Assembly: GCA_023132075.1 (NCBI GenBank)
Contig: JAGLYT010000059.1
Location: 1 to 8,330, forward strand
Direction of reading: 5' to 3'
Length of the DNA: 8,330 nucleotides
Source: JAGLHV01 sp023132075 [NCBI: bacterium]
Lineage (GTDB): Bacteria > CBDUZB01 > JAGLHV01
Both the position numbers and the translations under genes were made by a program. Position 1 is the stretch's first letter. The number at the start of each line of letters is the position of its first letter. The notes beneath the pieces are model-generated. The model was given only the letters and a program-made list of their open reading frames with translations, ran no database searches and was not told where the DNA came from. Positions 1,158 to 8,330 of the stretch are shown in pieces.

Positions 1158-1186
1158 TTGACAAGATTTAGAATACGATGTATAAT
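1158..1186 (+). promoter_or_regulatory. Consensus sigma70-type promoter for the Fur-family gene
   Basis: TTGACA (1158-1163) and TATAAT (1181-1186) are both perfect consensus hexamers separated by exactly 17 bases. Transcription would start near 1192-1194, about 35 bases before the regulator's ATG. A Fur-like box lies immediately downstream of the -10 element. Confidence 0.85.
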
Positions 1187-1197
1187 ATAACTGGGAA

Positions 1198-1212
1198 TGA
1201 AAACCATTACCA
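1198..1212 (+). promoter_or_regulatory. Fur-like operator box (7-1-7) in front of the regulator
   Basis: TGAAAACCATTACCA agrees with the classical 7-1-7 Fur-family box TGATAATNATTATCA at 11 of 14 fixed positions. It sits about 11 bases after the -10 hexamer, over the early transcribed region, where a bound repressor would block initiation. This suggests autoregulation. A sister site with the same flanks (AATGAAAA...CATT) lies at 1728-1742. The match to consensus is seen; binding is inferred. Confidence 0.55.
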
Positions 1213-1228
1213 TTAGGAGATGATTAGA

Positions 1229-1696
1229 ATGCCCGGACGAAACGGCAAGGGGCCACCCTGGTGGCACGGAAAATTTAGAGGATGTGGTTATAGGCTAACA
1301 ATCCCCAGGGAAACTATTATAGAGGTTTTAAGTAAAGCGGCGAAACATTTGAGTGCGGAAGAGATATATCTGGCAGTACATAAAGTGTATCCGGCTATTG
1401 GACTTACTACTATTTATCGCACTCTGGAATTACTGGTACAAATAGGATTGGTTTTCAAATTTGATTTTGGAGATGGAAGAGCCCGGTATGAATTAGCAGA
1501 AGGGCCTAAAGGAATAAGACAGCATCATCATTTGGTATGTACCAATTGTGGCAGAGTAATAGACTATACGGATTTTATTGATGAAGCCAAAGAATTTCTT
1601 TCACAAACGATGAAGGCTCTTAATAAAAAATGTAATTTTAAGATAACTAATCATCTTATTCAGTTTTATGGATTGTGTGAGAAATGTCAAAAATAG
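1229..1696 (+). CDS. Fur-family metal-dependent transcriptional regulator
   Basis: This 155-aa protein is a ferric-uptake-regulator family repressor. It has a winged helix at roughly residues 20-90, including the recognition helix region around GLTTIYRTLELL (58-69). The dimerisation/metal domain carries HHH at 99-101, CTNC (C104, C107), H142 and a C-terminal CEKC (C150, C153). The two CxxC pairs are the usual structural zinc site of the family. I chose ATG 1229 over the in-frame ATG at 1220, because 1220 lies inside the ribosome-binding site AGGAGATGATTAGA. The N-terminus MPGRNGKGPPWWHG is an unusual Gly-rich extension that resembles the start of the DUF5320 protein downstream. Whether it senses iron, zinc, manganese or peroxide cannot be decided from sequence. 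Two Fur-like boxes nearby suggest it controls itself and the following genes. Confidence 0.93.
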   Translation: MPGRNGKGPPWWHGKFRGCGYRLTIPRETIIEVLSKAAKHLSAEEIYLAVHKVYPAIGLTTIYRTLELLVQIGLVFKFDFGDGRARYELAEGPKGIRQHHHLVCTNCGRVIDYTDFIDEAKEFLSQTMKALNKKCNFKITNHLIQFYGLCEKCQK

Positions 1697-1714
1697 AAAG
1701 TGGAAGAATATATT
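1685..1714 (+). promoter_or_regulatory. Possible weak promoter for the DUF5320-led genes
   Basis: TATATT (1709-1714) matches five of six -10 consensus bases, but the candidate -35, TGTCAA (1685-1690, spacer 18), is poor and overlaps the end of the regulator gene. It is listed because it would place the Fur-like box at 1728-1742 in the same geometry, about 13 bases after the -10, as at the regulator promoter. Confidence 0.3.
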
Positions 1715-1727
1715 TTTTGAGCATAAA

Positions 1728-1742
1728 TGAAAATGGTTGTCA
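1728..1742 (+). promoter_or_regulatory. Second Fur-like operator box, before the DUF5320 gene
   Basis: TGAAAATGGTTGTCA matches TGATAATNATTATCA at 11 of 14 fixed positions. The extended 19-mer at 1726-1744 is an imperfect palindrome (AATGA...TCATT). It shares its outer arms (AATGAAAA...CATT) with the box at 1198-1212. It lies in the 71-base gap between the regulator and the DUF5320 gene, consistent with Fur-family control of the downstream genes. Confidence 0.55.
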
Positions 1743-1749
1743 TTAATAA

Positions 1750-1763
1750 AGAAAGGAGGTGAT
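1750..1763 (+). promoter_or_regulatory. Very long Shine-Dalgarno site
   Basis: AGAAAGGAGGTGAT is complementary over 14 bases to the common bacterial 16S rRNA 3' tail (ATCACCTCCTTTCT). The ATG at 1768 lies 8 bases after GGAGG, which fixes the start. The in-frame GTG at 1759 is inside this site and is not a start. A nearly identical site precedes the 69-aa protein at 3045. Confidence 0.85.
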
Positions 1764-1767
1764 TAAG

Positions 1768-2151
1768 ATGCCAGGTGGAGATAGAACAGGTCCTCGTGGA
1801 TTAGGGCCAATGACCGGTCGGGCAGCAGGTTTCTGTGCTGGTTCCCCTACTCCAGGTTATATGAATGGTATTCCCGGGAGAGGACGGGGAGGTGGTCGTG
1901 GTTGGGGTAGAGGTCGTGGCTGGGGACGAGGTTTTGGTATGGGTTTTGGTAGGCGAGGATTTGCATATCCTTATGAAATGCCTTATTATGGAAATGCTTA
2001 TCCTACAGCTCCATATGCTCCGGAGATTACTCCTCAACAAGAAGCCTCAATGTTGAAAGAACAGGCCAAAGCTATGAAGGAAGAAATTGAGCTGGTAAAC
2101 CAGCGCATAAAAGAGTTAGAATCGGCTGTCGCGTCAAAAGGCAATGAGTAA
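1768..2151 (+). CDS. DUF5320-type Gly/Arg-rich protein with C-terminal coiled coil
   Basis: This is a 127-aa protein in three parts. The N-terminus MPGGDRTGPRGLGPMTGRAA, followed shortly by FCAG, is the signature I associate with DUF5320. A Gly/Arg/Trp/Phe repeat section at about residues 32-65 is made of GRG, GWG and GFG units. A Tyr/Pro/Ala-rich linker leads into a charged helix at about 91-122 that looks like a short coiled coil. There is no signal peptide, membrane segment or catalytic motif. Such proteins are commonly met beside NifX-domain and MinD-type genes in anaerobes, as here, but no function is established. The basic, glycine-rich middle could bind nucleic acid, polyanions or metal, which is speculation. 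A very strong ribosome-binding site, an upstream Fur-like box and a hairpin after the stop suggest high, regulated expression. Confidence 0.8.
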   Translation: MPGGDRTGPRGLGPMTGRAAGFCAGSPTPGYMNGIPGRGRGGGRGWGRGRGWGRGFGMGFGRRGFAYPYEMPYYGNAYPTAPYAPEITPQQEASMLKEQAKAMKEEIELVNQRIKELESAVASKGNE

Positions 2152-2164
2152 AATGAGTAAGCAG

Positions 2165-2201
2165 TAGGTGGGAATAGAACCATTAATTCTATTCCCACCT
2201 A
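2165..2201 (+). terminator. 15-bp perfect hairpin between DUF5320 and the first NifX-type gene
   Basis: TAGGTGGGAATAGAA (2165-2179) and its exact complement (2187-2201) enclose a 7-base loop. Only AATTT follows instead of a T-run, so a full intrinsic terminator is doubtful. It may be a partial terminator or a 3'-end stabiliser that raises DUF5320 mRNA relative to the downstream genes. Confidence 0.6.
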
Positions 2202-2228
2202 AATTTCAGAAGGAAAAAGAGGTTAATT

Positions 2229-2618
2229 ATGAAAATAGCAATTTCAACTGATGGGGATTTTGTTTCTTCCCATTTTGGGCGATGTCCTTCTTTTACTATC
2301 ATTAATATCGAAAATAAAGAGGTAGTTAAAAAAGAGATAATTGATAATCCGGGACATCATCCGGGATTTATTCCGCAGTTTTTACATCAAAGAGGGGTAG
2401 AATATATTATTGCCGGTGGAATGGGTGCCCGGGCAGCGCAGCTTTTTAATGAAAAGGAAATAAAAACAATTGTAGGAATAACCGGGACAATAAACGATGT
2501 AATAGAAAAGCTAAAAAAAGGAACGTTAGAAGGTAAAGAAAGCCTTTGCAATCCAGGTGCAGGCAGGGGATATGGCATTGACAAGAGTGTATGCGACCAT
2601 CCTGATGAAGAACAATAA
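2229..2618 (+). CDS. NifX/orange-protein-type cofactor-binding protein (first copy)
   Basis: This 129-aa protein belongs to the dinitrogenase iron-molybdenum cofactor biosynthesis domain family (NifX, NafY, the NifB C-terminus, orange protein). The RNase-H-like fold is indicated by the opening strand MKIAIS, SSHFGRCPSF at 13-22, NPGHHPGF at 40-47, the glycine loop IIAGGMGARA at 60-69 and GITGT at 83-87. NPGHxPGF followed by AGGMG is typical of the orange-protein-like branch rather than of NifX itself. The C-terminal tail from about residue 104 adds a cysteine/glycine patch (C107, C122, H124) beyond the core domain, possibly an extra metal ligand set. The family carries Mo/Fe or Mo/Cu sulfide clusters. 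The cargo here is unknown and no nitrogenase gene is visible. The start is preceded by an AGGAAAAAGAGG purine run. Confidence 0.88.
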   Translation: MKIAISTDGDFVSSHFGRCPSFTIINIENKEVVKKEIIDNPGHHPGFIPQFLHQRGVEYIIAGGMGARAAQLFNEKEIKTIVGITGTINDVIEKLKKGTLEGKESLCNPGAGRGYGIDKSVCDHPDEEQ

Positions 2619-2641
2619 AAAACAGAAAGGGAGGTAAAAAG

Positions 2642-3010
2642 ATGAAAATTTGTGTAACTGCAGAAGGGGATAATTTAGATTCCACGGTAGATCCCCGTTT
2701 CGGAAGATGCCAGTATTTTATTGTAGTAGACAGTGATACTTTAGAGTTTGAAGCCATACAAAATCCAAATAGGGAAACGATGGGTGGTGCGGGGATTCAA
2801 TCTTCTCAACTTATTGCCGGGAAACAGGCTAAAGCCGTGTTATCGGGAAATATTGGGCCCAATGCTTTTCAAACCCTTCAGGCAGCAGGGGTAGAAATAA
2901 TTACCGGGGTTTCGGGAACAGTTAAAGAGGCAATAGAGCAATACAAAGAGGGTAAATTAGAATCAACCCAGGGACCCAGTGTAAATTCGAAATTTGGTAT
3001 GCCGGAGTAG
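2642..3010 (+). CDS. NifX-type cofactor-binding protein (second copy)
   Basis: This 122-aa protein is a second member of the dinitrogenase FeMo-cofactor biosynthesis domain family. It has the opening strand MKICVTAEG, VDPRFGRCQYF at 16-26, a glycine loop around LSGNIGPNA (67-75) and TGVSGTVKEAI near 88-98. Cysteines are C4 and C23; the extra Cys-rich tail and the HH motif of the upstream copy are absent. The two copies are clearly diverged, so they probably do different jobs (for instance carrier and partner) rather than being a recent duplication. The gene starts 23 bases after its neighbour's stop, behind a strong GGGAGG ribosome-binding site, and the next gene follows after 34 bases, which indicates one operon. 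In the family these proteins bind or shuttle metal-sulfur cofactors. The metal here is not predictable. Confidence 0.9.
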   Translation: MKICVTAEGDNLDSTVDPRFGRCQYFIVVDSDTLEFEAIQNPNRETMGGAGIQSSQLIAGKQAKAVLSGNIGPNAFQTLQAAGVEIITGVSGTVKEAIEQYKEGKLESTQGPSVNSKFGMPE

Positions 3011-3030
3011 AATTAGAATAATTTTAAAAA

Positions 3031-3070
3031 AGGAGGTGATTAAGATGCCCAGAGGAGATGGAACAGGTCC
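3031..3070 (+). repeat. Copy of the RBS plus N-terminal codon module
   Basis: These 40 bases, from AGGAGGTGAT through codon 9 of the 69-aa protein, are identical at 36 positions to 1754-1793 at the DUF5320 gene. A weaker version starts at 1215 before the Fur-family gene (18 of the first 22 bases). The ATG at 3045 is 8 bases after GGAGG. The in-frame ATG at 2994 overlaps the previous gene and reads straight through the ribosome-binding site, so it is rejected as the start. Confidence 0.8.
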
Positions 3071-3254
3071 GTTTGGCGGGGGTCCGGGAAGTGGAGGAGG
3101 ACGAGGTCAAGGAAGAGGGGGAGGCCGTCCCGGAATAGGTCCGGGAGGTTCTTGTTTGTGTCCGAAATGCGGTAATAAGGTTGCGCATCAGGCAGGGGTT
3201 CCCTGTACGTCAATGAGTTGTCCGAATTGCGGGACAAAAATGACTAGAAATTAA
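3045..3254 (+). CDS. 69-aa Gly-rich protein with double-CxxC zinc-ribbon-like end
   Basis: This small protein has a glycine/arginine-rich N-terminal half. It begins MPRGDGTGPFGGGP, close to the DUF5320 opening, and has GRGQGRGGGR-type repeats up to residue 35. The compact C-terminal half has C37, CPKC (C39, C42), C54 and CPNC (C59, C62). Two CxxC knuckles 16 residues apart are typical of a zinc ribbon or rubredoxin-like fold, so it should bind Zn or Fe. I do not recognise a characterised homologue. It lies 34 bases after the second NifX-type gene and before the ATPase pair, so it probably belongs to the same system, perhaps as a metal-binding accessory. The RBS and start are nearly a copy of those of the DUF5320 gene, pointing to co-evolved or coordinated translation. 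Confidence 0.8.
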   Translation: MPRGDGTGPFGGGPGSGGGRGQGRGGGRPGIGPGGSCLCPKCGNKVAHQAGVPCTSMSCPNCGTKMTRN

Positions 3255-3422
3255 GCGCATTTTTTTAACACTTATTTAATGTAGGGGCGACCGAGGGTCG
3301 CCCGAAAGATTTGAAGAATGGTCCTAAGCGAAAATTCGTTAAATCATTCAGGGTACATTCTGCCTTCATTTTTTTGAGGGGTATAGTTAAAATTTTGATT
3401 TTTTGAGGGAGAAAAAAAGTAG
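3255..3422. other. Structured intergenic region before the first MinD-type ATPase
   Basis: No gene is visible in this 168-base gap. It holds a T-run at 3260-3266 without a preceding stem, the GC-rich hairpin at 3285-3303, and an imperfect long-range stem between AGAATG (3315-3320) and CATTCT (3356-3361) that encloses CGAAAATTCG. The ribosome-binding site GAGGGAG (3405-3411) for the next gene is rather far, 11 bases, from its ATG. No convincing promoter was found. Confidence 0.5.
3285..3303. repeat. GC-rich palindrome, REP-like
   Basis: GGGCGACC (3285-3292), loop GAG, GGTCGCCC (3296-3303) is a perfect 8-bp stem much richer in GC than its surroundings. No T-run follows on either side, so it is not a standard terminator. 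Its look resembles short palindromic elements dispersed in many bacterial genomes; copy number cannot be seen from this window. Confidence 0.5.
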
Positions 3423-4289
3423 ATGATTATTTCAGTAGCCAGCGGTAAAGGTGGGACGGGAAAGACATTGGTATCCACCAGTCTTGCCCTTTCTATGGAG
3501 AACAATGTACAACTTTTAGATTGTGATGTAGAAGAACCCAATGCTCATATTTTTATAAAAGCGGAGATTAAAAACAAATATCCGGCTTTTATTCCTATTC
3601 CTCAAATTGATAAAGAAAAATGTAATTTTTGTGGTAAATGTGCCGAGGTGTGTGTTTATAATGCTATAGCGGTATTGAAACAAGACGTTTTAGTTTTTAA
3701 AGAGCTTTGCCATGGTTGTGGTGCCTGTAGTTTTCTTTGTCCGCAGAAAGCAATAAGAGAAATTAATAAAGAAATTGGGGTAGTTAATAAGGGTAATTTC
3801 AAAGCTATAGAATTTATTGAGGGGAAGCTTAATATTGGGGAAGCAATGGCTCCCCCCTTGATTCGACAGGTTAAAGAACATATAAATGCTGAGAAAACAG
3901 TGATTATTGATGCCCCTCCCGGAACTTCCTGCCCGGTTATTGTTTCTATTACAGAAACTGATTTCTGCCTGTTAGTAACAGAACCAACCCCTTTTGGTCT
4001 TAATGATTTGATATTAAGTGTGGAAGTAATGAGAAAGCTTAAGATTCCTTTTGGCGTAATTATTAATCGTTGTGATTTGGGAGATGAAGAAACGCAGAAA
4101 TATTGTACAAAGGAAAACATTCCGATACTGATGAATATTCCCTTTAAAAAAGAGATAGCAATTGCTTATTCCAAAGGGACACCTCTGGTAGAAGCGTTTC
4201 CCGAATATAAAAATAAATTTATGGATTTGTTGAATAAGATAAAAGTAATAAAAAGAAGTGAGTGGGAAAAATCAATTATTTCGCAGTAA
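3423..4289 (+). CDS. MinD-superfamily ATPase with inserted 2[4Fe-4S] ferredoxin domain (first copy)
   Basis: This 288-aa protein is a P-loop ATPase of the MinD/Mrp superfamily, in the group carrying an inserted ferredoxin domain (COG1149 type). The deviant Walker A GKGGTGKT is at 8-15, DCDVEEPN (switch I region) at 33-40 and DAPPGTSCPV at 163-172. Between switch I and switch II are two ferredoxin motifs: C67-C70-C73-C77 and C96-C99-C102-C106, enough for two [4Fe-4S] clusters. Length and domain order are normal for the family. Relatives act in ATP-driven handling of iron-sulfur or other metal cofactors, and two such ATPases occur in the orange-protein complex of Desulfovibrio. Here it is the first of a tandem pair, following the NifX-type genes. 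A metallocluster assembly or transfer role is inferred from this context. Confidence 0.93.
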   Translation: MIISVASGKGGTGKTLVSTSLALSMENNVQLLDCDVEEPNAHIFIKAEIKNKYPAFIPIPQIDKEKCNFCGKCAEVCVYNAIAVLKQDVLVFKELCHGCGACSFLCPQKAIREINKEIGVVNKGNFKAIEFIEGKLNIGEAMAPPLIRQVKEHINAEKTVIIDAPPGTSCPVIVSITETDFCLLVTEPTPFGLNDLILSVEVMRKLKIPFGVIINRCDLGDEETQKYCTKENIPILMNIPFKKEIAIAYSKGTPLVEAFPEYKNKFMDLLNKIKVIKRSEWEKSIISQ

Positions 4290-4445
4290 GCCATGGGGAA
4301 TTAAACACTCGACCCTTCGCTTCCCTGCAAGGGAGTTTATGCTGAGCAAAGCGAAGTGCTCAGGATCAATTCGACTACAGAGTTTTCAGCTAAAGCTTAT
4401 AAAAACTCTAAGTCTCATTGAAATTAAATTATACAAGGATTGATA
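4290..4445. other. Repeat-bearing spacer between the two ATPase genes
   Basis: This 156-base gap interrupts an otherwise tight series. Most of it is a palindromic, more GC-rich element (about 4309-4375). The last 60 bases are AT-rich and end in AAGGA (4435-4439), the ribosome-binding site for the ATG at 4446. An open frame crossing the region (4258-4443) has no ribosome-binding site or recognisable product. Confidence 0.5.
4309..4375. repeat. Composite palindromic element, possible dispersed repeat
   Basis: TCGAC occurs as a direct repeat at both ends (4309-4313, 4371-4375). Inside are CTTCGCTT (4315-4322), a small stem TCCCT/AGGGA (4322-4334), and a perfect 7-bp stem CTGAGCA/TGCTCAG (4342-4348, 4357-4363). 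The 8-base loop of that stem, AAGCGAAG (4349-4356), is the exact complement of CTTCGCTT. The composition differs from the surrounding AT-rich spacer. It resembles short non-coding repeats scattered in many bacterial genomes; this is inferred from appearance. Confidence 0.55.
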
Positions 4446-5324
4446 ATGAAACAAATTGTGATCATCAGCGGTAAAGGAGGGACGGGAAAAACTGTAGTAA
4501 CCAGTGCTTTTGCTTCTTTGGCCAAAAACAAAGTAATGGCAGACTGTGATGTTGATGCTGCCGATTTACATTTGTTGCTTAGTCCTCAAATAAAAGAAAA
4601 GTATGAATTTAAAAGCGGGGTGACTGCAGTTATTGATAAAGAACTTTGTAATCAATGTGAGCAATGTGTTCAGGTGTGCCGTTTTTCCGCTGTAAATACG
4701 AGTCAATCCGCCTCCGGGGAAAAAGAGTTTGTGGTAGATCCTATTGCTTGTGAAGGATGTGCCTTTTGTAGTTTTGTCTGTCCTACCAAAGCAATAAAAA
4801 TGGAAGAGAATGTATCCGGAGAATGGTACATTTCGGATACCAGGTTTGGTTCTCTTGTTCATGCCAAATTAGGAATAGCGTCTGAAAATTCAGGAAAACT
4901 TGTTACCCTGGTGAAACAAAAAGCAAAAGAATTAGCAGAGAAACAAAATTGTGATTGGATTATTATCGATGGTGCTCCCGGGATAGGATGTCCGGTAATT
5001 GCTTCATTATCGGGGGTGGATTATGCATTAGTTATCACCGAGCCGACATTATCCGGCCTTCACGATGCGGATAGAGTGATTAAAATGGTAAAGCATTTTA
5101 AACTTTCGGTTAAATTAATCATCAACAAATACGATTTAAATAAAGAGATGACGGAAAAAATAGAAGAATATTGTAAAAGCAGGGATATTCCTCTTATCGG
5201 AAAAATAAGTTTTGATGAGTCGATGGTAAAGGCGATGATAGAGGGTAAAACAATTATAGAATATGGGCAGGGAAAAGCCCGGGACGAGATTATTACGATC
5301 TGGGATAGATTAAAAAAAACTTGA
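4446..5324 (+). CDS. MinD-superfamily ATPase with inserted 2[4Fe-4S] ferredoxin domain (second copy)
   Basis: This 292-aa paralogue of the preceding ATPase has the same order of parts: GKGGTGKT at 9-16, DCDVDAADLH at 33-42, ferredoxin motifs C68-C71-C74-C78 and C102-C105-C108-C112, and IDGAPGIGCPV at 174-184. The intact deviant Walker A lysine pair and all eight cluster cysteines suggest an active redox-linked ATPase. I start it at ATG 4446, six bases after AAGGA, rather than at the in-frame TTG 4440, which directly follows that site. MinD-type ATPases work as dimers, so the two neighbours could form a heterodimer. That is inference, supported by both being retained complete but well diverged. 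The end of the gene overlaps the -35 element of the TetR promoter, so this is the last gene of the metal/redox block. Confidence 0.93.
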   Translation: MKQIVIISGKGGTGKTVVTSAFASLAKNKVMADCDVDAADLHLLLSPQIKEKYEFKSGVTAVIDKELCNQCEQCVQVCRFSAVNTSQSASGEKEFVVDPIACEGCAFCSFVCPTKAIKMEENVSGEWYISDTRFGSLVHAKLGIASENSGKLVTLVKQKAKELAEKQNCDWIIIDGAPGIGCPVIASLSGVDYALVITEPTLSGLHDADRVIKMVKHFKLSVKLIINKYDLNKEMTEKIEEYCKSRDIPLIGKISFDESMVKAMIEGKTIIEYGQGKARDEIITIWDRLKKT

Positions 5325-5349
5325 CAAATTAAACGAAATAAGCTATAAT
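5321..5349 (+). promoter_or_regulatory. Consensus sigma70-type promoter for the TetR gene
   Basis: TTGACA (5321-5326) and TATAAT (5344-5349) are perfect hexamers with a 17-base spacer. The -35 overlaps the stop codon of the preceding ATPase gene. Possible operator elements downstream are weak: a GAATAT direct repeat at 5352-5357 and 5373-5378 (21-base period), and CTAAA/TTTAG arms at 5362-5366 and 5378-5382. Either could be a TetR site, with low confidence. Confidence 0.85.
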
Positions 5350-5396: not shown

Positions 5397-5975
5397 TTGA
5401 AAACAAACGAGAAAAAAGGAATTATCACTAAAGTAGCGCAGAGAATTTTTTCCAAATATGGTTTAATTAAAACAACCGTTGATGAAATTGCCAAAGCCGC
5501 CCGAATGGGGAAAGCAAGTTTATATCATTATTTTAAAAGCAAGGAAGATATTTTTAGAGAGGTTGTTGAAAAAGAGAATAGATTTTTAAAAGAAAAAATA
5601 AACGAAGCAATAAACAACGAGCATACACCGCAAAAGAAAATCAGAGCATATATAATGACTCGAATGAAATACCTCAGTGAGCTGGCTAATATCCACAGCG
5701 CTCTCAAGGATGATTATCTTGACCATTATGCTTTTATAGAAAAAATAAGAGAGAGAACTTTTCAGGAAGAAATTGCAACAATTAAAGCAATTCTAAAAGA
5801 AGGGGTAAAAAACGGAATATTTTCAATTCGTGATATAGAATTGACTTCATTTGCGATTATTTCTGCATTGAAGGGTTTGGAATATCCCTGGTCTGTGAAA
5901 ACATCTTTACCGGAAATAGAAAAGAATATAGATAAATTGATGGAAATACTTTTTAATGGGATTATAAAGAGGTAG
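5397..5975 (+). CDS. TetR/AcrR-family transcriptional regulator
   Basis: This 192-aa one-component repressor has the TetR-type helix-turn-helix near residues 25-47 (TVDEIAKAARMGKASLYHYF), followed by the usual KSKEDIF. The C-terminal ligand-binding domain is helical and not specific enough to predict an effector. The start is TTG 5397 behind AGAAAGGTG (5381-5389). The next in-frame ATG falls inside the DNA-binding helix and would destroy it, so a non-ATG start is well supported. The gene has its own consensus promoter and is followed after 65 bases by the ACP gene. The context suggests a lipid- or acyl-responsive regulator of the ACP, acyltransferase and patatin genes, as for several TetR proteins of fatty-acid metabolism, but this is inference. 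Confidence 0.92.
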   Translation: MKTNEKKGIITKVAQRIFSKYGLIKTTVDEIAKAARMGKASLYHYFKSKEDIFREVVEKENRFLKEKINEAINNEHTPQKKIRAYIMTRMKYLSELANIHSALKDDYLDHYAFIEKIRERTFQEEIATIKAILKEGVKNGIFSIRDIELTSFAIISALKGLEYPWSVKTSLPEIEKNIDKLMEILFNGIIKR

Positions 5976-6040
5976 TTTATTTTTTTTTGTTTAAAAATGG
6001 AACGAAAAACCAAAATGTTTGAATAGTTTAAAAGGGAAAA
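5976..6040. other. AT-rich gap with T-tract after the TetR gene
   Basis: A T-tract (TTTATTTTTTTTTG, about 5977-5989) directly follows the TetR stop codon, but no stem precedes it, so I do not call a terminator. AAAGGGA about five bases before the ACP start is the probable ribosome-binding site. Read-through from the TetR gene into the ACP gene is plausible. Confidence 0.35.
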
Positions 6041-6313
6041 ATGTTACTATTTAATGAAGTAAAAAAAATTGTGGTTAATCAACTCCGGGTTGATGATTCA
6101 AAGGTAAAATTAGAGTCTAAATTTATTGATGATTTAGGTATTGATTCTTTAGATTTGGCTCAGTTGCTGATGTTTATGGAAGATGCATTTGGGATTAATA
6201 TTATCGATACTAATTATTTTCAACGGTTTATTACTATTGGCGATCTGGTAGAAATTGTAGAAGAAGAAATAAAAGGGAAGGATAATTTAAAGAAAAATAA
6301 AAGTTTAAATTAA
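6041..6313 (+). CDS. Acyl carrier protein
   Basis: This 90-aa acidic four-helix carrier protein holds fatty-acyl or other acyl groups as thioesters on a 4'-phosphopantetheine arm. The attachment serine is S36 in the DDLGIDSLDLAQLL motif at 30-43. The core domain ends near residue 78 (VEIVEEEIKGK) and a lysine/asparagine-rich tail of about 12 residues follows, making it slightly longer than housekeeping AcpP. No fab genes lie around it; instead it sits upstream of a YghO/bCerS-like acyltransferase. That suggests a dedicated carrier for a specialised lipid pathway rather than the bulk fatty-acid synthase carrier. A polyketide-type or other specialised carrier role cannot be excluded from sequence. 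Confidence 0.92.
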   Translation: MLLFNEVKKIVVNQLRVDDSKVKLESKFIDDLGIDSLDLAQLLMFMEDAFGINIIDTNYFQRFITIGDLVEIVEEEIKGKDNLKKNKSLN

Positions 6314-6375
6314 TAGAAATTGTAATTATATATTTTCTGGACGGAGATAGATGCAGGGCTGATAAGGAGAGAAAA

Positions 6376-7494
6376 ATGAACGGGATAAATATTAAAGTTG
6401 TTGAAAGCAAAAAAGATTTAAAAAAATTTTTAAAATTTCCCTGGAAAATTTACCGAGACAATTCTTATTGGGTTCCACCATTGATGAAAGAGGTTAAAAA
6501 TTTACTTGATCCTGAAAAACATCCATTTTGGATACATGCAAAGAGAGAATTATTCTTAGCCGAAAGGAATGGGGAGGTTGTGGGGAGAATTGCTGCTATT
6601 TTTGATCAAAATCATAATAACTTTCACCAAGAGAAAACCGGGTTCTTCGGTTTTTTTGAATGTATTGAGGAGTATTCTGTTACTGAAGTTTTATTGAATA
6701 CTGCCAAAAGATGGTGCCAAATGGAGGGGATGAAAATTTTAAGGGGTCCTGTAAATCCCAGCATGAATGAAGAGTGTGCCTTTCTTCTGGAAGGGTTTGA
6801 TAAATCGCCGACAATAATGATGTCGTATACCCAACCCTATTATCTTGAATTTATGGAGCGATATGGTTTTCGGAAAGCAAAAGATTTATATGCTCTACTC
6901 AAAAAAATAGAAGACGGTATTCCTAAACGCATTGAAAAACTCGTAGAGAGAATAAAGAAAAAAACAAGGGTGAAAGTACGGCCTTTTGATATGAAAAATT
7001 ATAAAAGAGATATTCAATTTATTAAAGATATTTATAACTCTGCCTGGGAGAAAAATTGGGGTTTTGTTCCAATGACAGAGGGTGAAATGGATTTGACTGC
7101 AGAAAATATTAAACAAATTGCCATTCCTGAGTTGGTTCTCTTTGCTGAAATAGAGGGTAAACCTGTGGGGGTGAGTGTTACCGTTCCGGACTTTAATCAG
7201 GTATTGAACAAATTAAACGGCAAATTAGGACTGATTGGGATAGTGAAATTTTTATATTATAAGAGAAAAATAGATGGAGTTCGTTCAATCCTTGGTGGAG
7301 TAAAAAAAGAATACCGGAATTCCGGGATTATTGCTGTTTTATCTTATGAAACAGAAAAGAATATAATTAAATTAGGATATAAATGGTGTGAATTAGGTTG
7401 GAATTTGGAGGATAATGATTTAATAAATCAATTTGATATGGCTATCGGAGGGAAGATTTGTAAGAAATATAGAATTTATGAGATGGAGATTTAA
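6376..7494 (+). CDS. YghO/bCerS-like GNAT-fold acyltransferase
   Basis: This 372-aa protein has two GNAT-like halves. The N-terminal part contains YWVPPLMKE (31-39), a strand LFLAERNGEVVGRIAA (59-74), and GPVNPSMNEECAFLLEGF (124-141) followed by YTQPYYLEFMERYGFRKAKDLYA (151-173). The second part contains YNSAWEKNWGFVPMT (220-234), AEIEGKPVGVSV (257-268), GGVKKEYRNSGI (307-318) and GWNLEDN (341-347). These blocks are those I associate with the YghO/BcerS-like family. It includes bacterial ceramide synthase, which N-acylates sphingoid bases, and many uncharacterised members. The substrate is therefore uncertain: N-acylation of a long-chain amine is the best guess, and another amine or amino-acid acceptor is possible. 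A strong AAGGAGA ribosome-binding site precedes the ATG. The stop overlaps the next gene's first ATG, so the two are translationally coupled. Confidence 0.75.
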   Translation: MNGINIKVVESKKDLKKFLKFPWKIYRDNSYWVPPLMKEVKNLLDPEKHPFWIHAKRELFLAERNGEVVGRIAAIFDQNHNNFHQEKTGFFGFFECIEEYSVTEVLLNTAKRWCQMEGMKILRGPVNPSMNEECAFLLEGFDKSPTIMMSYTQPYYLEFMERYGFRKAKDLYALLKKIEDGIPKRIEKLVERIKKKTRVKVRPFDMKNYKRDIQFIKDIYNSAWEKNWGFVPMTEGEMDLTAENIKQIAIPELVLFAEIEGKPVGVSVTVPDFNQVLNKLNGKLGLIGIVKFLYYKRKIDGVRSILGGVKKEYRNSGIIAVLSYETEKNIIKLGYKWCELGWNLEDNDLINQFDMAIGGKICKKYRIYEMEI

Positions 7495-7496
7495 TG

Positions 7497-8330
7497 ATGA
7501 GAAAAAAATTAAAAATAGGTTTGGCCCTGGGAAGCGGAGCGGCACGGGGTTTGGCTCATATTGGGGTATTAAAAGTTTTAGAAGAAAATAAAATTCCTAT
7601 TGATTTAATTGCGGGAACGAGTATGGGGGCATTAGTTGGGGGGGCATATGCCGTAGGAATGTCTGTGGATGAGATGGAAAGAATAGCGATGGAAGTGGAC
7701 TGGAAAAGGTTAGGCCGGTTAATGGATTTTGTTATTCCCAGGTCAGGATTTATCAATGGGAAAAAAGTGAAAACTTTCATCAAAACCCTGGTGAAGAATA
7801 AAAAGATTGAGGAACTCAAAATACCTTTTGCTACTGTGGCTACAGATATTGAAACAGGAGAGGAAGTAATTATTCAGCAAGGGTTGATAGTAGAAGCAAT
7901 CCGGGCCAGTGCTTCAATCCCGGGAATATTTACTCCGGTCAGGAATGGGAAAAAAATTTTAGTCGATGGAGGATTGGTTAATCCTATTCCAATAAGTGTA
8001 GTGAAAAAAATGGGAGCAGATATTATTATTGCGGTTAATGTCATTTCCGGTCCGAAGAGAAAAAACCCTTCTAAAAAACTTCTATCACCCACTTCTGTTT
8101 TAGCAAAGAAAAATCAATCCGTCAAACATAATGAATCTCGTTTGCCCGGATTAGACCTTGCAGTGATCAAAACTAAATTTGATAAACTATTAAAAGAGAA
8201 ACTGATAAGCAGCGAGAAGTGGAAACAGATTATTAACCGATTTCAAAACGGGGAAGATAAATCACTGCCCAATATTATTACTGTACTATACCAGGCAATA
8301 AAAATAGCGGAAGAGAAAATGGTAGAATCC
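7497..8330 (+). CDS. Patatin-like phospholipase (RssA type), 3'-truncated by window edge
   Basis: The frame stays open to the last base, giving 278 residues with no stop, so the C-terminus lies beyond the window. It has the patatin oxyanion loop LGSGAARGLAHIGVL (11-25), nucleophile elbow GTSMG with Ser42, and catalytic Asp157 in VDGGLVNPIP, i.e. a complete Ser-Asp dyad. ASIPGIFTPV (139-148) is the usual block before it. Proteins of this COG1752/RssA group are predicted to be esterases or phospholipases acting on membrane lipids. Two adjacent ATGs (7494 and 7497) are possible starts. I take 7497, eight bases after GGAG (7485-7488), though 7494 forms a TAATG overlap with the upstream stop. Residues beyond about 185 are lysine-rich and less conserved. 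Coupling to the acyltransferase suggests a shared role in lipid remodelling. Confidence 0.9.
   Translation, partial: MRKKLKIGLALGSGAARGLAHIGVLKVLEENKIPIDLIAGTSMGALVGGAYAVGMSVDEMERIAMEVDWKRLGRLMDFVIPRSGFINGKKVKTFIKTLVKNKKIEELKIPFATVATDIETGEEVIIQQGLIVEAIRASASIPGIFTPVRNGKKILVDGGLVNPIPISVVKKMGADIIIAVNVISGPKRKNPSKKLLSPTSVLAKKNQSVKHNESRLPGLDLAVIKTKFDKLLKEKLISSEKWKQIINRFQNGEDKSLPNIITVLYQAIKIAEEKMVES

Follow-up and report, generated by a model that had tools for sequence, protein, structure and literature searches.

A Fur-associated NifX and ferredoxin-MinD gene cluster of many little-known anaerobic bacteria, probably for capturing and passing on iron-sulfur material

The 8,330-nucleotide contig JAGLYT010000059.1 of the bacterium JAGLHV01 sp023132075 (assembly GCA_023132075.1), called the window here and analysed at its full length, encodes on its + strand, within positions 1229-5324, a Fur-family regulator, a DUF5320 protein, two NifX-type proteins (NifX1 and NifX2), a small protein with two CxxC pairs (the CxxC protein) and two MinD-type ATPases with inserted ferredoxins (MinD-1 and MinD-2). 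This cluster is spread over many little-known anaerobic bacteria, and its role is probably the capture and passing on of iron-sulfur material. That the cargo is iron or iron-sulfur and not another metal is likely; that the genes form a Fur-repressed operon which captures and delivers such material in anaerobes has an even chance of being correct; and that they include a matrix step like that of IssA, the iron-sulfur storage protein of Pyrococcus furiosus, split over separate proteins, is a tentative analogy with somewhat less than an even chance. At stake is the way in which anaerobes of sulfidic habitats keep and hand on iron and sulfur while avoiding precipitation, for which the operon is a concrete candidate, being Fur-controlled, a possible split IssA and equipped with dedicated ferredoxin-ATPases; the reading also assigns a likely job to DUF5320, a family whose function is not indicated in the titles and abstract openings of the two papers that a search for its name gave. 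The features are as follows.

1158..1186, + strand: sigma70-type promoter TTGACA-17-TATAAT before fur, matching the consensus at 12 of 12 positions
1198..1212, + strand: predicted Fur box 1, matching at 11 of 14 positions, 12 bases past the -10 hexamer and near the expected transcription start
1229..1696, + strand: Fur-family regulator with an N-terminal MPGRNGKGPPWWHGKFRGCGYRLT extension (PF01475, 105.5 bits, cut-off 23.1)
1728..1742, + strand: predicted Fur box 2, between fur and DUF5320, matching at 11 of 14 positions
1768..2151, + strand: DUF5320 protein with an N-terminal MPGGDRTGPRGLGPMTGRAAGFC, a cationic middle rich in glycine, arginine and tryptophan, and a C-terminal predicted coil (PF17253, 85.4 bits, cut-off 27)
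2165..2201, + strand: perfect 15-bp hairpin without a U-run, directly 3' of the DUF5320 stop codon (predicted fold -24.3 kcal/mol, z -5.5)
2229..2618, + strand: NifX1 (PF02579, 82.0 bits, cut-off 26.3)
2642..3010, + strand: NifX2, of the orange-protein type, with a cysteine in RFGRC (PF02579, 89.1 bits, cut-off 26.3)
3045..3254, + strand: small glycine-rich double-CxxC protein starting with MPRGDGTGP, with six cysteines and one histidine (assigned by conserved residues)
3423..4289, + strand: MinD-1, a MinD-type ATPase with an inserted two-[4Fe-4S] ferredoxin at about 3600-3761 (Pfam)
4290..4400, no strand assigned: dispersed repeat element in the gap that separates the MinD-1 and MinD-2 genes (27 matches in the window genome including itself)
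4446..5324, + strand: MinD-2, a MinD-type ATPase with an inserted two-[4Fe-4S] ferredoxin at about 4626-4802 (Pfam)

A preliminary description of this DNA had listed these genes on one strand, and all of them were found there, at the positions above, by an open reading frame (ORF) list and a Pfam profile search of the window, with Pfam matches over the cut-offs for all but the CxxC protein. Gene starts were chosen from the sequence for Fur (1229), DUF5320 (1768) and MinD-2 (4446); the Fur start was put at 1229 because an upstream ATG at 1220 sits in the ribosome-binding stretch. The window is an entire contig (C345) of a genome of 1.87 Mb in 389 contigs, 86.7% complete, whose phylum is sampled by three genomes of one genus.

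A search with the Fur protein as its only query gave 189 relatives, of which 80 loci were kept; neighbouring genes were assigned to families with an in-house ORF finder and clustering, and the denominator for each gene is the number of loci with enough downstream sequence. By profile searches, the gene for DUF5320 lies within 1.5 kb downstream of fur in 61 of 69 loci, those for NifX1 and NifX2 within 3 kb in 49 of 57 and 53 of 57, that for the CxxC protein within 4 kb in 35 of 49 and that for MinD-1 within 6.5 kb in 42 of 43; by clusters, a MinD-2 gene is present no more than 6 kb downstream in 37 of 43. Gene order and direction are kept across loci, no opposite-strand DUF5320, NifX1, NifX2, CxxC or MinD-1 gene occurs among them, and all six core genes are present in 40 of 80 loci by profiles and in 27 of the 43 loci with at least 6 kb of downstream sequence by clusters. 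The preliminary description had named a lack of conserved clustering in related genomes as a finding that would speak against it; the clustering is kept, as the count for MinD-1 exemplifies. That description is partly supported, namely in its proposal of a conserved, metal-controlled metallocluster locus. The cluster is carried by records labelled Omnitrophota, Nitrospirae, WOR-3, TA06, Elusimicrobia, Atribacterota, Latescibacterota, Eisenbacteria, Ratteibacteria, Coatesbacteria, Auribacterota, Neomarinimicrobiota, Spirochaetes and others, labels that may err because nearly all of these records are metagenome bins. Among 237 sampled genomes of the phylum of locus L042 (a record titled Omnitrophica), 73 have a Fur with the N-terminal tryptophan pair (WW-Fur), 75 have DUF5320 and 70 have both, leaving 3 and 5 exceptions (Fisher p 6e-50, ignoring shared ancestry). 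DUF5320 is the next gene after fur for 75 of 83 WW-Fur genes in these genomes, a count that may be too low because one DUF5320 place was entered per locus or genome. No title or abstract opening found in a literature search describes a Fur-DUF5320-NifX-MinD cluster.

The Fur protein is the sole PF01475 match found in the window genome. Its iron ligands H40, E88, H99 and H101 are present in 78 of 78 aligned proteins, and the residues matching the iron site of E. coli Fur (H33, E81, H88 and H90 in the numbering of PMC10318462) and the CxxC pairs are kept in 77 or 78 of 78. E. coli Fur is reported, in the accessible part of the same source, to hold a [2Fe-2S] cluster at Cys-93 and Cys-96, and the window Fur has both of the equivalent cysteines. 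The WW-Furs of the L042 phylum form their own group, with 48-78% identity and more than 140 bits, against 112.8 bits for one other Fur and at most 92.4 bits for the rest, the 140-bit split having been picked after the list was viewed. No NCBIfam equivalog cut-off is reached by the window Fur, and because confidence in its structural model is modest (predicted local distance difference test, pLDDT, 72.7, with 47 and 59 for the first 20 residues) no claim is made on the folding of the N-terminal extension.

Putative operators were defined as 7-1-7 Fur boxes matching at 11 or more of 14 positions, with dinucleotide shuffles as the control. Such boxes stand ahead of fur in 47 of 81 loci, where shuffles give 2.97, and ahead of DUF5320 in 34 of 59, where shuffles give 1.4; before the other genes boxes number 1 in 51 loci for NifX1, 1 in 36 for NifX2, 0 in 30 for the CxxC protein, 1 in 43 for MinD-1 and 1 in 25 for MinD-2. 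Over all 140 half-site permutations (median 2 loci), the Fur half-site ranks second with 47 loci after TAATGAT with 48, whose top rank we put down to an overlapping register of the same Fur box. A promoter match accompanies the box in 42 of 48 fur regions, the box mostly starting no more than about 15 bases past the end of the -10 hexamer, and from this position we infer repression by iron-loaded Fur at the predicted operators. A promoter scan of the window found 12 sites against 10.6 expected, so that the quality alone of the 12/12 site before fur is notable; sigma54-type promoters number two at two or fewer mismatches against 2.35 expected in the window, and neither precedes the cluster. The contrast that the preliminary description drew with the sigma54-controlled Desulfovibrio case is upheld by this result and by the sigma70-type promoter and Fur box before fur. 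Among the neighbouring genes, feoB occurs in 7 of 80 loci (one member confirmed in Pfam); in the Atribacterota records L036, L044 and L069 it stands immediately before fur and is co-directional with it. A small gene beside feoB is a putative feoA. EncFtn-like genes are likewise present in 7 of 80 loci, inside the cluster in L042 (2400-2651, where PF22277 was checked) and in the six others.

NifX1 matches positions 265-363 of the MrpORP model, the Di-Nase region, with 101 bits. The motif HFGxC is kept in 62 of 62 NifX1 relatives and a C-terminal C[DENS][HD] in 47 of 62, and the first cysteine of CXHFGHC is present in just 12 of 62; in MrpORP, the Di-Nase region is described as having a [3Fe-4S] cluster, with the CXHFGHCE and CDH motifs proposed as ligands (PMC6345978, accessible part). 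The likeness of the NifX-type proteins to orange protein, named in the preliminary description, is borne out by NifX2, whose best solved relative is the D. gigas orange protein 2wfb (89.2 bits, E 2e-24). The NifX2 cysteine aligns with alanine in 2wfb, in MTH1175 (1eo1) and in the TM1290-type 1rdu, and both NifX proteins have a cysteine at the site where their aligned solved relatives have alanine or serine; [RH]FG[RH]C is found in 55 of 62 NifX2 relatives and FGRA in 3. Two fusions suggest that the proteins act together: in L034, NifX1 and NifX2 form one ORF, and in L076, the NifX2 gene has a C-terminal DUF5320-like coil segment (best E 2e-6). Of the 22 other proteins among the matches listed for this segment, 21 are DUF5320 proteins and the last is another tagged protein.

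The middle of DUF5320 contains, as medians over 57 proteins, 27% glycine, 11% arginine plus lysine, 20% phenylalanine, tryptophan or tyrosine and 2% acidic residues, with an isoelectric point (pI) of 10.35, and the 57 proteins together have 403 arginines versus 12 lysines there. The tail of IssA has 15 glycine, 7 cationic and 14 aromatic residues among 70 and a pI of 10.7 (PMC5524996, accessible part). By composition thresholds derived from DUF5320 itself, a stretch of this kind occurs in 48 of 60 DUF5320 proteins and in 1 of 1185 other ORFs, the single outsider being DUF5320-like. The CxxC protein, of 69 residues, has zinc-ribbon Pfam matches only, all under the cut-off, and keeps C37, C39, C42, H48, C54, C59 and C62 in 43 of 43 aligned proteins; as solved relatives, profile matching gave a ClpX-like chaperone at the top (E 0.0025) and weaker matches below it, which was uninformative.

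An MPxxDGTGP-like N-terminal motif stands on three unrelated proteins, among the Furs only in part. DUF5320 starts with MPxxDxTGPxGxGPMTGRxxGYC (M, P, the T/G/P core and Cys23 in 98-100% of 61), the CxxC protein with MPxGxGxGP (M and P in 98% of 43) and Fur with MPxxxGxGPPWWxGxFxGCGYR (W11 in 96%, W12 in 91% and G20 in 100% of 78). A loose pattern fits 60 of 60 DUF5320 and 29 of 43 CxxC proteins and a few small proteins (one by chance); the Fur form is the least regular, because the pattern fits just 26 of 83 Fur members. A strict DNA pattern for the motif has 49 sites in 25 genomes versus 0 for the reversed pattern, and its two sites in the window genome both lie inside the window. In the window, the genes for Fur, DUF5320 and the CxxC protein are alike around their ribosome-binding sites and starts (repeat D2, two copies being 60% and 89% identical to the reference), a similarity that could reflect shared ancestry of the gene starts instead of selection on the motif. 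The motif stands twice in tandem in DUF5320 proteins of L030 (8537-9064), L035 (6445-6969), L046 (625-1161), L056, L058, L064 and L078, and other small proteins with a start of this type are encoded at 10146-10361 of L030, 4942-5520 of L026 and 3788-4273 of L079. It is a speculative and rather unlikely proposal that MPxxDGTGP-type N-termini serve these proteins in common for docking or sensing, by which Fur would read the state of an iron-sulfide matrix instead of, or besides, free ferrous iron, NifX and DUF5320 being a two-protein equivalent of IssA. Since Fur and the glycine-rich proteins that would hold the cargo have versions of the motif, one NifX/ATPase machine would handle both; if true, a two-protein IssA equivalent would be widespread in uncultivated anaerobes.

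The hairpin that follows DUF5320 in the window has counterparts elsewhere. Perfect inverted repeats of at least 8 bases occur in 17 of 46 DUF5320-NifX gaps versus 0.3 in shuffles; they occur in 0 of 14 NifX1-NifX2, 1 of 15 NifX2-CxxC and 1 of 7 MinD-1-MinD-2 gaps, and in 9 of 50 gaps from fur to DUF5320, which contain the Fur box, a palindrome in its own right. Predicted folding has a z below -3 (mononucleotide shuffles) in 26 of 42 DUF5320-NifX gaps and in 8 of 46, 1 of 10, 1 of 21, 0 of 8 and 2 of 7 of the other gaps. An Rfam scan of the window gave no match at the gathering score. The hairpin may be a 3'-end stabiliser or a processing site that sets the amount of DUF5320 apart.

Both ATPases match CbiA, ParA and two Fer4 motifs each in Pfam and keep the deviant Walker A motif GKGGTGKT; eight ferredoxin cysteines are conserved together with C170 in 52 of 52 aligned MinD-1 proteins and with C182 in 45 of 45 aligned MinD-2 proteins. 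The twin ferredoxin-MinD ATPases of the preliminary description resemble Orp3 and Orp4 as published (PMC6345978, accessible part). The nearest folds to the MinD-1 model (pLDDT 92.4) are nearly tied, being ApbC (Z 23.1, root-mean-square deviation 3.0, 218 residues aligned), MinD (22.0, 2.9, 213), BchL (21.8, 2.9, 216) and HypB (21.7, 2.5, 201), and this predicted sharing of a fold shows no function. PF10609 is over its Pfam cut-off for the ATPases, which score 52.7 and 47.1 bits with the MrpORP model (cut-off 450), and no C-terminal CxxC was seen in either sequence. BLAST of MinD-1 against NifH aligned the P-loop alone; by eye, a cysteine lies seven residues past the switch-II aspartate in both ATPases and in NifH, an equivalence without a supporting alignment. 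A GGGGCGACC/GGTCGCCC palindrome was spotted by eye in the gap upstream of MinD-1 (3255-3422).

In the mechanism proposed here, a shortage of iron would cause Fur to leave its two operators, as their position predicts, and the operon would be transcribed. NifX1, which is like the Di-Nase of MrpORP, NifX2, which is like orange protein with a cysteine added, and the cationic DUF5320 would hold iron-sulfide or iron-sulfur precursors in a manner akin to that in which IssA, a nanoparticle-forming protein, binds thioferrate with its NifX domain and tail, here spread over separate proteins; the two ferredoxin-MinD ATPases would spend ATP and electrons on mobilising the material and on its transfer to client proteins, with help in some loci from Mrp or NifU-type partners that are encoded close by. 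Iron-sulfur is favoured over molybdenum-copper as the cargo because of the Fur boxes, the invariant Fur iron ligands, the feoB and ferritin-like neighbours and the NifX cysteines.

Several observations weigh against this reading. The Fur boxes of the window are weak taken alone, with three mismatches each: sites with three or fewer mismatches number 5 against 1.55 expected, a count equalled in 6 of 200 shuffles. The feoB and EncFtn-like genes are each confined to just 7 of the 80 loci, NifX2 is nearer to the molybdenum-copper orange protein than to the IssA-type MTH1175 (89.2 versus 76.4 bits), and a same-genus genome listed as 94% complete (G001) has no match for WW-Fur or DUF5320. SufBD was found in 20 of 49 system genomes, and its absence from the 29 in which none was found, many of the genomes being incomplete, is just partly supportive. 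SBP_bac_11 (PF13531), which we take to be a broad family that includes molybdate-binding proteins, is matched in 36 of the 49 genomes, with no match in 13, a result compatible with molybdate uptake, and is too broad for a test of it. Lastly, IssA is produced when iron and sulfide are abundant (PMC5524996, accessible part), and a repressor-type Fur box predicts expression at low iron, which makes simple storage a poor fit.

Storage at high iron is nevertheless the main rival, although an unlikely one. A store of the IssA type that fills up at high iron and sulfide, Fur being an activator or anti-silencer, would suit the IssA-like composition of DUF5320, the presence in 7 of 80 loci of EncFtn-like genes for iron storage and a hairpin that could raise the amount of DUF5320; the Fur box, however, is mostly no further than about 15 bases from the -10 hexamer, a repressor position (in 42 of the 48 fur regions with a box a promoter is also matched), and feoB, which is normally iron-repressed, shares a stretch with the cluster in the three Atribacterota loci.

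More doubtful is an orange-protein-type complex that has a molybdenum-copper sulfide cluster as its cargo and is merely Fur-controlled. The preliminary description had leaned towards such a cargo, in keeping with orange protein as the best solved relative of NifX2, with a ferredoxin-MinD pair as in Orp3/Orp4 and with SBP_bac_11 proteins in 36 of 49 genomes, but the lean is weakened by the Fur boxes, by the feoB and EncFtn-like neighbours and by cysteines in NifX1 and NifX2 at the site where aligned solved relatives have alanine or serine. There is also no sigma54 promoter above chance in the window, and the HFGxC NifX motif of MrpORP is present in 0 of 20 Mrp-like neighbour proteins.

Equally improbable is a system devoted to the maturation of a single further metalloenzyme encoded outside the locus, for which iron would be a regulatory cue only. 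The presence of ApbC and HypB among the nearest folds of MinD-1 and of methyltransferase (23 of 43 loci), Mrp (12 of 43) and NifU_N-type (16 of 43) neighbours is in keeping with such a system, but no one enzyme family turns up repeatedly next to the cluster across the 80 loci, where the recurrent neighbour families are regulators, carriers, transporters and general enzymes only.

A NifX-type chaperone set for nitrogenase cofactor assembly is the least probable of the alternatives. The words 'without nitrogenase' in the preliminary description hold for the window but not for its genome, in which three PF00148 matches lie on contig C131 (L088); a genome of the same genus (G003) has four on contig C135 (L089) beside NifH-like and radical S-adenosylmethionine (SAM) genes, the nifD/K/E/N/H/B names in both loci coming from translations and PF00148 matches. 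In favour of the chaperone role, a stand-alone radical-SAM gene near the nif genes of G003 is read as NifB without a NifX part, and NifX1 and NifX2 are the only PF02579 proteins found in the window genome. PF00148 over the cut-off is, however, absent from 45 of 50 system-bearing genomes, which were picked for carrying WW-Fur, so nitrogenase is not a general partner and the link was rejected as a general function, the window's own genus apart; the nifX equivalog TIGR02663 scores 16.7 bits and does not reach its cut-off of 112.

Downstream of the cluster, the window encodes a TetR regulator, an acyl carrier protein, a 372-residue protein and a protein read as patatin-like (5397-8330). A second 12/12 sigma70-type promoter lies ahead of the TetR and acyl carrier protein genes at 5321-5349, and these two genes are shared only by L003 among the profiled loci.

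We read the Fur-DUF5320-NifX-MinD operon as a variant of the orange-protein/IssA kind. Like the orange protein (ORP) complex of Desulfovibrio vulgaris (Orp3, 4, 5, 8, 9), it has an orange-protein-type NifX and a pair of MinD-type ATPases in which each member contains two ferredoxin motifs, whereas DUF5320 and the CxxC protein are absent from the five ORP proteins as described in the accessible part of PMC6345978. The ORP complex is controlled by sigma54 and an activator (PMC3897727, accessible part), in contrast to the Fur boxes and sigma70-type promoter of the window, and it includes the MrpORP fusion, whereas the window has none and 0 of 20 Mrp-like neighbours have HFG[HR]C or RFG[HR]C; the cysteine of NifX2 stands where ORP has alanine. 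NifX1 resembles the Di-Nase of MrpORP (Orp9) in its profile match of 101 bits and in HFGxC and differs in being a stand-alone protein. The window Fur is like other PF01475 proteins in its iron-site and zinc-site residues and differs by its N-terminal WW extension and separate score group. The words operon, MinD and Fur are absent from the main text of the IssA paper in a whole-word search (PMC5524996). IssA, like the window, combines a NifX-type domain with a high-pI segment rich in glycine, arginine and aromatic residues, but in IssA the domain and tail form one chain, whereas in the window the tail-like segment is in DUF5320 and NifX1 and NifX2 have no tail; the window further differs from IssA by its two different cysteine-bearing NifX proteins, its ATPases and its predicted control by Fur.

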